Assembly (NCBI GenBank): GCA_030647435.1
Contig: JAUSJX010000170.1
Location: 1 to 33,026 of the forward strand
Length of the DNA: 33,026 nucleotides
Direction: 5' to 3'
DNA from: Candidatus Rokuibacteriota bacterium
GTDB taxonomy: Bacteria; Methylomirabilota; Methylomirabilia; Rokubacteriales; CSP1-6
Shown: positions 13,804-16,646 of the stretch, one piece after another
Position numbering within the stretch: the stretch's first letter is position 1
Layout of the letters: each line of letters begins with the position of its first letter
Program-made: the position numbers and the translations under genes
Notes under the pieces: generated by a model
The model's database searches: none
What the model saw: only the letters and a program-made list of their open reading frames with translations
Told to the model about the DNA's origin: nothing

Positions 13804-14997
13804 TCAGCCGCGCGCCATGTTCCGACGCTCCCGGAACCACAGAATGGACGTGGCGAGGGCCGTGAGCGCGAGGAAAGGCACGGTGAGCCTGGTGAGCATC
13901 GCCCAGCCGCCGCTGCCTGTGACCACCACGCCGGATGTCAGCGAGGAGCTGACCATGACCGCGAACACCAGGGAGTCGTTGACGCCCTGAACCTTCGCCT
14001 TCTCCGCCGGCCTGTGGGCTTCGGTGAGGAGCATGGTGCCGCCGATGTAGAGGAAGTTCCAGCCCACCCCCAGGAGAGTCAGCGCCCACCAGAAGTGCAT
14101 GAGCGTGACCCCGCTCATGGCGATGGCGACGCAGACGAACATCAGGGCGGCGCCGGCGAGCAGCACGTTCAGCACCCCTAGGCGGCGGATGAGGCCGCCG
14201 GTGAAGAACGACGGCGCGAACATGCCGACCACGTGCCACTGCAGCACGAACGTCGCGTCGGCGAACGGATGGCCGCAGCAGAGGTCCATGGCGAGCGGCG
14301 TGACGCTCATGAGGAGGTTCATTACGCCGTAGCCCACCGCCGCCGCCAATACCGCCACCACGACGGCGGGCTGGCGCAGGATCACGCCCAGCGGCCGACC
14401 CGTGCCATGCCGCTCCTCTGGCGACTGCTCGGGGAAGGAGAGCCCGGCGGCGATGACGAACGACGCCAGCGCGAACACCGCGAGCGCGGCGTAGGAGGCG
14501 AGAAACTGGGGCTCGACCAGGTCGCGCGTGACGCGTCCCACGGCCGAGCCGATGAAGCCGCCGAAGATCCCCCCGGCGAGGGTCAGCGAGATGGCCCGGC
14601 TCTTCCAGTCAGGCGGCGCCGCATCGGCGGCAGCGAAGCGATAGTACTGGCCGAAGGCGTTATAGATGCCGCACAGGAACGTGCCGGCGAGCAGCAGCGT
14701 GAAGCTGTGCACGGCGATCGCGATCGCGCCGACGGCGCCGCCTGCCATGCCGAGGATCGAGCCGACGAGAAAGCCCGCCCGCCGACCATGGCGCTTCATG
14801 AAGAGAGACGCGGGCAGGGTGGATATCGCCGCACCCAGCACGTAGGCTACGGCGGGCACCGTAGCCAACCGCGGGGAGGGCGCGAGGGCATATCCCGCCA
14901 GGGCGCCCACGGCGGCCATCAACACGCCGTTCGAGAGCAACAGCATCTGGCAGACGGCGAGCCGGGCGACCGTCCTCTTCGGGGACCTGACGCGCAC
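13804..14997 (-). CDS. Major facilitator superfamily transporter
   Basis: A 397-residue protein with about twelve hydrophobic segments and MFS features, including the loop F-M-K-R-H-G-R-R-A-G-F between helices 2 and 3 and a charged central loop near residues 205-215 (P-E-Q-S-P-E-E-R-H-G). It uses GTG 14997 as start and follows the Sec MerB-like gene by 11 bases on the same strand, so it is the third gene of a GrdB-like / MerB-like / MFS operon. Substrate cannot be told; export of a product of the two upstream selenoproteins, or of a metal(loid), is a contextual guess. Residues L-C-C-G-H near helix 7 give a vicinal Cys pair that could bind thiophilic metal. Confidence 0.85.
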   Translation of the reverse strand: MRVRSPKRTVARLAVCQMLLLSNGVLMAAVGALAGYALAPSPRLATVPAVAYVLGAAISTLPASLFMKRHGRRAGFLVGSILGMAGGAVGAIAIAVHSFTLLLAGTFLCGIYNAFGQYYRFAAADAAPPDWKSRAISLTLAGGIFGGFIGSAVGRVTRDLVEPQFLASYAALAVFALASFVIAAGLSFPEQSPEERHGTGRPLGVILRQPAVVVAVLAAAVGYGVMNLLMSVTPLAMDLCCGHPFADATFVLQWHVVGMFAPSFFTGGLIRRLGVLNVLLAGAALMFVCVAIAMSGVTLMHFWWALTLLGVGWNFLYIGGTMLLTEAHRPAEKAKVQGVNDSLVFAVMVSSSLTSGVVVTGSGGWAMLTRLTVPFLALTALATSILWFRERRNMARG

Positions 14998-15008
14998 GCT
15001 CTATCGGG

Positions 15009-15749
15009 TCAGGCGCTCGGGGCCGGCGTGCCGAGCCAGAAGGGCGATGCCTTGCCGATCCGCGCGAGGTACTCGCGGCGTTCAGCCGCGCGCATCGGGT
15101 ACCAGCGCGACAGGTAGTCGGCATCCAGCATGTGCTGCCGCGACTCGGTGCCAAAGAGGCCCGCCAGCTCCGGCAGGGAGATGAACCCCTCATCAGACTC
15201 GGGGCGGAATTGCTCCCAGCGCCGGGCATGCTCTTCCGACCGGAAGAGGTTCATGCCCGTTCACAAAAATGGCGGGCGGCCCCGTGACGGGCCAAAGCCG
15301 TAGTTCAGGTGACCGATAACGGTCGGAGGATCGATCCACGTGAGGCGGCCGTCGAGCATCTCGACGGTCAGCGGGTCGCCGCAGTCGAGACAGGCGGCGT
15401 CAATCCGCACTCGTTCTCCCGGAAAGAGCCAGGTCACCGACGTCGCCTCGAAGCCGCACTGGGCGAACCACTTCTGCTCCCCGCGCACCGTCACCCGGTA
15501 CTGGGTGGGGAGGCCGTTCAGGGGCGGGAACGAGGCGATGTAGTCCGTCTCGGGATGCAGCCACCCGATCGGGTACGCTTGCAGGACGGCATGAAGGATC
15601 GTCCGGCTCTCGGCGGGACTCACGCCGAGCGAGCGAGCAAGCTCCGCGTAGTGCGGCGGCCGGCCCGTGTCGATCAACGCCCGCGTGATGCGGTTCCACA
15701 TCCGGTCGGTGATTCCGCCGCCCGCCATCTCCGTCCCGCTGCCGGGCAT
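15009..15749 (-). CDS. Selenoprotein: organomercurial lyase (MerB)-like protein (Sec163)
   Basis: A 246-residue protein read through an in-frame TGA at 15263-15261. Residues ~12-75 form a winged-helix-like N-terminal domain as in MerB. Then W-F-A-Q-C-G-F-E (Cys98, Glu101) lines up with MerB W-C-A-L-D (Cys96, Asp99), and A-A-C-L-D-C-G (Cys120) with MerB Cys117. The TGA codon, residue 163, falls at MerB catalytic Cys159; what follows, T-G-M-N-L-F-R-S-E-E-H-A-R-R-W, matches the MerB segment after Cys159 (x-x-H-F-F-x-S-x-x-x-A). Spacing between the two catalytic positions is 65 here and 63 in MerB. A near-ideal SECIS hairpin follows. MerB cleaves C-Hg bonds; selenium binds mercury even more tightly, so C-Hg lysis or Hg capture is plausible but unproven. 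The gene starts three bases after the GrdB-like stop. No merA, merT or merR is seen. Confidence 0.82.
15223..15263 (-). promoter_or_regulatory. UGA (Sec) codon and strong bSECIS hairpin of the MerB-like gene
   Basis: On the minus strand, one base after TGA, CGGGCATG pairs with CATGCCCG (eight pairs); after an AAC bulge on the 5' side, CTCTTCC pairs with GGAAGAG (seven pairs) around the loop GGTC. That is fifteen Watson-Crick pairs without a mismatch. The loop begins 19 nt after the TGA and contains GGUC, the core of the E. coli fdhF SECIS loop. This is the clearest of the five elements. Confidence 0.88.
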
Positions 15750-15752
15750 CCG

Positions 15753-16646
15753 CTAGATCTTCCCCGTCGCCTTCAGGGCGCGATACGTCTCCTTGCGCTC
15801 CAGCCACTTCCGCGTGGCTTCGGGGTCGAGGAACGGCTGCGCCTTGGTGAGGACCTTGTCCTTCCAGGAGTGGTCGGCGCTCCACTCGTAGGGCGTGACC
15901 ACCGTGGTGCCAGCGGCCGTCGCATTGACGAGAAGGTCGAGCCCCAGGGACAGGACCTCGCGCTGCATGTCGAGGTCGTACGGCTTGCCGGTGGGGTTGC
16001 CCAGCGGAAAGTCGCTGAAGACGAAGCGCGGGACTCCGCAATGCTCGACGATATCGCGCGCGCAGCCGAACACAACGGTCGGGATTCCATTCTCTTCCAG
16101 ATACCGGGCGGCCAGACTCACGGTCTGGTGGCAGACGGGTCAGACCGCGGTGAGGACCGCCACGTCCACGCGGTCCTCCCGCATCTGCTTCAGGATCTCC
16201 GGCGCGTCGACGGTCAGCGTCTTGCGCTGGCTGTACTCGGACTGGATCATCTGGAACCGGGGCGCCACGGCGCCGATCGTCCCCTCAGCGACGAAGCGGT
16301 GGAGGTGGGTCAACGGGAGATAGCTGTCCACATCGTCGAGGGTGGTGGCGTAGCGGTCGTACGCCGCCTTGCGACTGCAGAGCTCGTCCACGAAGATGTC
16401 GGTCGGTAGCGCGTACACGAGCCGCCTGGGGTCGTCGGGTCCGGCCTCCACGCCCCGGCGCGCCATCTCGCTGGTCGTCACCACGCCCACGCGGCACTCG
16501 GAGAGCGGCTTGCCGACCGAGGCGAACGGCGTGAACGGAATGTGGTCGAAATGCGCCCACTCGTACGGCGTGGCGTAGCCCTCAGCCTCGTAGTATGCCC
16601 GTGTCTTGTCGATGTATCGGACGTGACTCGCCGTCCCGCGGCTCAT
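15753..16646 (-). CDS. Selenoprotein: GrdB/PrdB-type reductase family protein (Sec169)
   Basis: A 297-residue protein read through TGA 16142-16140. Around it the frame reads V-A-V-L-T-A-V-U-P-V-C-H-Q-T-V-S-L-A-A-R-Y-L-E, the redox motif U-x-x-C placed as in selenoprotein B of glycine/sarcosine/betaine/D-proline reductases. Upstream, R-V-G-V-V-T-T-S-E-M and S-Y-L-P-L-T-H-L-H-R-F fit the same family, which has G-A-V-A-P-R-F seen here too. Relatives outside Clostridia lack the GrdA/GrdC partners and have no proven substrate; none of those partners is seen here. The start ATG 16646 has AGGAGGGG three bases upstream. First gene of the operon with the MerB-like and MFS genes. A gene caller would split it at 16140 and restart at 16121. 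Confidence 0.86.
16112..16142 (-). promoter_or_regulatory. UGA (Sec) codon and bSECIS-type hairpin of the GrdB-like gene
   Basis: On the minus strand CCAGAC pairs with GTCTGG (six pairs) around the loop CGTGA, which begins 17 nt after the TGA. Position fits a bacterial SECIS; the stem is shorter than in the MerB-like gene. Confidence 0.68.

Follow-up and report, generated by a model that had tools for sequence, protein, structure and literature searches.

A MerB-superfamily gene of a Candidatus Rokuibacteriota bacterium with a predicted selenocysteine at the MerB Cys159 position

MerB is the textbook methylmercury-destroying enzyme, and the binding of selenium to mercury is stronger than that of sulphur. 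In published calculations, mercury is held in MerB by a site made up of Cys96, Asp99 and Cys159 (PMC4525700). The literature already contains an alkylmercury lyase MerB-like selenoprotein (PMC9312934), and SaoL, the MerB-like organometallic lyase of the selenocysteine (Sec)-assisted organometallic (SAO) system, is listed, in a passage of PMC13188914 that cites Haft and Gwadz 2023, as a selenoprotein resembling MerB that carries a CU motif. Two genes that score above the SaoL cut-off were found in the present analysis, and both have Sec at the Cys159 column. The preliminary description of the locus treated below took a Sec MerB to be undescribed; since Sec at this column was already known in the superfamily, that claim of novelty fails. 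What is new is a large Sec-containing family with the MerB fold, together with members of it that have predicted Sec at both catalytic positions. No description of this family or of a double-Sec MerB was found in the literature covered, which does not include Haft and Gwadz 2023 or Haft and Tolstoy 2025.

The window, the whole 33,026-nucleotide stretch that was analysed, is contig JAUSJX010000170.1 of assembly GCA_030647435.1. Its MerB-like gene lies on the minus strand at 15009..15749 and encodes 246 amino acids with predicted Sec at codon 163, the assignment to the superfamily being based on the Pfam MerB score and the predicted fold. The two minus-strand frames, 15261-15749 and 15009-15254, are a single frame split by a TGA at 15261-15263, as the preliminary description had read them. 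The joined protein scores 55.2 bits against Pfam MerB (PF03243, residues 81-194), above the curated cut-off of 27, while the part upstream of the TGA scores 33.7 bits alone and no family was found for the downstream part searched alone. The window gene is confirmed as one MerB-superfamily gene read through the TGA at codon 163. In HMM alignments to the solved MerB structures 5c17, 3f2g and 1s6l, Cys98 (15456..15458) corresponds to Cys96, Cys120 (15390..15392) to Cys117, Glu101 (15447..15449) to Asp99, and the TGA falls on the Cys159 column with no gap between codon 163 and the following M-N-L-F. All of these residue assignments had been proposed from the sequence beforehand, and they stand. 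The strict MerB active site is not retained, since Cys96 is kept but Asp99 is replaced by Glu (in 70 of 73 relatives, the other three having Asp) and Cys159 by Sec (in all 73). The two NCBI MerB equivalog models give only 26.5 and 21.8 bits, far below their cut-offs of 193 and 200.

The AlphaFold model of the window protein has a pLDDT of 92 and a pTM of 0.88, based on an alignment of 59 rows. It aligns with seven MerB crystal structures with Z scores of 15.1-17.5 over 182-192 residues; the closest is 5c17 (Z 17.5), the other MerB entries give Z 15.1-15.8, and the best unrelated structure reaches Z 8.6. Judged from this predicted model, MerB is the sole solved fold that matches the window protein well; folds not listed in the comparison are not counted as absent. 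In the tree, the window family forms a single clade with 99/99 support, with Sec in 28/28 sampled rows, while SaoL and the other Sec paralogues are placed among the Cys-type MerB proteins; on the well-supported branches, Cys and Sec must have been exchanged at least three times. Identity of the window gene with SaoL was considered and dropped, since the gene scores 33.2 bits against the SaoL model (NF040728, cut-off 140) and belongs to a separate, well-supported clade.

When species-representative genomes were scanned, 80 loci were recovered. They come from Rokubacteria, Chloroflexi (Dehalococcoidia, SAR202), Acidimicrobiia, Deltaproteobacteria, Nitrospinota, Tectomicrobia and other bacteria of soil and ocean. 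Because the scan motif on the post-TGA side begins after the TGA codon, Cys forms could have been found as well, yet no Cys form of the window subfamily was found among the 80 loci. Every locus that covers codon 163 has TGA there (73/73 in the codon alignment, whose relatives come from Rokubacteria, Chloroflexi, Acidimicrobiia, Deltaproteobacteria and Nitrospinota) and none terminates at this column, so that neither outcome named beforehand as contradicting the assignment, a TGA away from the Cys159 column or homologues ending at it, occurred. Many orthologues with the TGA are also present among 95 genomes of the same phylum. The Cys/Sec exchange for which a check by homologue alignment had been proposed is seen only between branches: Cys occupies the column in L037 and L038 of the same phylum and in plasmid MerB proteins, and none was seen within the window subfamily. 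The plasmid search returned only distant Cys-type MerB. Position 98 (Cys or Sec), Cys120 and Sec163 are invariant in the 73 relatives, and position 101 is always acidic. Judged by these alignments, the conservation of the TGA is far beyond chance.

The same data bear on whether the TGA is a feature of a pseudogene, a sequencing error or a codon that this genome has reassigned to encode an amino acid. The sequences come from draft metagenome assemblies, and the frame is broken in some relatives, by a TAG in L013 and by a frameshift in L024. However, the same TGA is found in 73 sequences from many genomes, the median dN/dS is 0.23 after the TGA, indicating purifying selection there, and 0.16 before it, and TGA is also the normal terminal stop of the window gene, which argues against reassignment. 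These explanations are refuted by the conservation and are left with a negligible probability. Several Acidimicrobiia loci, among them L089 and L106, are extended at the C terminus by about 140 residues, for a total of 384-399 amino acids, and have Gly in place of Cys123.

Immediately 3′ of the TGA, a bacterial SECIS hairpin is predicted on the minus strand at 15223..15259 (MFE -26.3 kcal/mol, z -3.14), with its apical stem at 15231-15248 and a GGUC loop at 15238-15241. The fdhF SECIS of E. coli has a GGUC loop as well. Codons 168-173 are nearly fixed across phyla as CTC TTC CGG TCG GAA GAG, with synonymous entropies of 0.43, 0, 0.76, 0.38, 0.18 and 0.39 bits, compared with 2.20 and 2.14 bits at the conserved Leu37 and Leu108, 1.57 at Arg85 and 1.43 at Ser73. 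Synonymous variation collapses only at these six codons, whose bases make up the apical stem and the GGUC loop. Folding after codon 163 has a mean z of -1.69 relative to synonymous shuffles. The same hairpin is kept by Sec-type MerB paralogues outside the window family, and it does not form in any of the eight Cys homologues inspected. Rfam at gathering thresholds gives no match in the window, bacterial SECIS elements being poorly covered by Rfam. The Sec machinery of the window genome lies together on contig 56, with tRNA-Sec (71 bits, in agreement with ARAGORN), selA (584 bits) and selB (381 bits). Of 24 host genomes, 23 have a selB above cut-off; only a Tectomicrobia bin does not. Three features by which bacterial selenoproteins are recognized are present, namely a conserved TGA paired with Cys in homologues, a hairpin after the TGA and Sec machinery in the genome. 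From this comparative evidence, it is nearly certain that codon 163 (TGA) is translated as Sec, and the hairpin would direct the insertion.

Other Sec candidates are present in the same genome and class. A second MerB paralogue of the window genome, L001 (402-778 on the minus strand of contig 120), has a TGA at the Cys159 column. Next to it lie a UxxC glutaredoxin-like frame and a merR-like gene in divergent orientation, and its own frame is broken in the assembly. L182 (contig 119, 4271-5602, minus strand) is a MerA-like flavoprotein in which a TGA occupies the position of the second redox Cys (GGTCVNRGUIPKK); its 340 bits against the MerA model are below the cut-off. L033 and L041 form a further MerB branch with a TGA at the Cys159 column (UPSTNFF) and come from another family within the class.

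In 24 of the 73 relatives, codon 98, equivalent to MerB Cys96, is TGA too (L075, L080, L084, L116, L131 and 19 more loci), so both catalytic thiols would be replaced by Sec in these proteins. Leu103 is encoded by CTG in all 24 of them, and every Arg106 codon among them is CGC, a fixation that is absent in the Cys98 members. Folding 3′ of codon 98 is more stable in the TGA98 members, with a mean z of -1.08, than in the Cys98 members, with -0.24 (Mann-Whitney p 0.004, a guide only, because the rows are related). This second TGA also helps to decide whether the first could be a true stop, with translation restarting at the ATG three codons on to give two polypeptides. Such a restart would account for an ATG close behind the TGA and for the invariance of Met166 in the window family. 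However, no obvious ribosome-binding site precedes the M166 ATG, Sec paralogues such as those with UTTINFF or UPSTNFF lack the Met, and the TGA at codon 98 (QUGFE) is followed by its own hairpin and by no start codon; moreover, the active site would be cut in two. Given the paralogues without the Met and the second TGA without a following start, a restart at Met166 is rejected as highly improbable.

Three bases upstream of the MerB-like gene ends a PrdB/GrdB-like gene (15753..16646, minus strand; TIGR04483, 105.9 bits) with an in-frame TGA of its own (codon 169, 16140-16142) within a UPVCHQT motif, and 11 bases downstream lies an MFS transporter gene (13804..14997, minus strand; Pfam MFS_1, 80.6 bits). 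The PrdB-like and MerB-like genes and the transporter gene likely form an operon, of which the transporter is probably the third gene. In 67 of the phylum's 95 genomes the PrdB-like gene has a relative, and almost all of these relatives contain a single TGA. The hairpin of the window's PrdB-like gene scores weakly against shuffled sequences (z -0.51); the case for Sec in this gene rests on conservation. The preliminary description mentioned neither this TGA nor the second MerB paralogue. Only in the window, G059, L079 and L084 are a PrdB-like and a MerB-like gene close to each other, in varying order, and the other neighbours vary, which weakens the case for a conserved operon partner. Neighbours elsewhere are catabolic and differ between genomes, including ABC transporters, CoA-transferase III, amidohydrolase, enoyl-CoA hydratase and Rieske oxygenase. 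No mer genes are found among the scanned neighbours of window-type loci, and no MerA above cut-off is found in the window genome.

The window protein is a predicted selenoprotein of the MerB superfamily and, by analogy with MerB, probably carries out an organometal-lyase type of reaction; its substrate is proposed to be an organomercurial or another soft organometal(loid). Sec163, Cys98 and Glu101 would take the places of Cys159, Cys96 and Asp99. The selenolate and the thiolate would grip the metal of the organometallic compound, a proton would be delivered to the leaving carbon with the help of the acid, and the bound metal would then be handed to thiols; with a selenolate, capture of the metal may be faster or tighter. 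MerB-like chemistry is supported by the invariance of the metal-binding positions as Cys or Sec. Organomercury as the main substrate is a tentative assignment, and the catabolic neighbours and the lack of a MerA above cut-off disfavour it as the native one. The replacement of Asp99 by Glu, the C-terminal extension, the wide distance from the MerB equivalog cut-offs and the absence of mer genes all count against a lyase assignment, and the carbon-metal bond need not be the target. With Sec real, the MerB fold could instead have been turned to breaking a different kind of bond (carbon-sulphur, carbon-selenium or carbon-nitrogen, for instance) in catabolic pathways, possibly alongside selenoproteins of the PrdB-like type. 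Variable catabolic neighbours without mer genes agree with such a role, as do the Glu and the PrdB-like Sec gene adjacent or nearby, in either order, in the window, G059 and two Deltaproteobacteria bins. Cleavage of another bond is nevertheless unlikely, since Cys or Sec is retained at every metal-binding position of MerB, something that a switch to a new class of substrate would not require, and since the PrdB-like gene adjoins the MerB-like gene in few loci only.

With Sec fixed at one of its catalytic sites and frequent at the other, such a family would offer a natural experiment on why selenium is used there. Annotation of TGA as a stop would cut such genes short. Since they would then be easily missed, the capacity of soil and dark-ocean bacteria for organometal breakdown may be underestimated.

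Each of the related systems shares some features with the window protein. MerB (PF03243, for example PDB 3f0o and 5c17) has the same fold, the same Cys96, Cys117 and Cys159 positions and an acid at position 99. The window family differs from it in having Sec for Cys159, Glu for Asp99 and sometimes Sec at Cys96, and the window protein has an extra C-terminal extension, no mer operon and 18-20% identity. SaoL is likewise a selenoprotein of the MerB superfamily whose Sec occupies the same column, where TCUNVMNFF of SaoL (L157) aligns with FLUTGMNLF of the window protein, but SaoL has a Cys just before the Sec that the window protein lacks. The window gene is flanked by the MFS and PrdB-like genes, with no SAO genes seen beside it. 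That the family is a pan-phylum group of MerB-fold selenoenzymes, independent of SaoL, with one or both catalytic thiols as obligate Sec, working apart from any mer operon and with a substrate that is not organomercury, is less likely than not. The adjacent gene belongs to the family of PrdB and GrdB, of the D-proline and glycine reductases, and has the UxxC motif in common with them, but scores only 106 bits where the PrdB cut-off is 300. The phylum's Sec-type MerB paralogues (L001, L039 and L040) likewise have the TGA at the Cys159 column and the same hairpin, CTTCTTCCGGTCGGAAGA; they are shorter and nearer to canonical MerB, and the copy in the window genome is the one that adjoins the merR-like gene.
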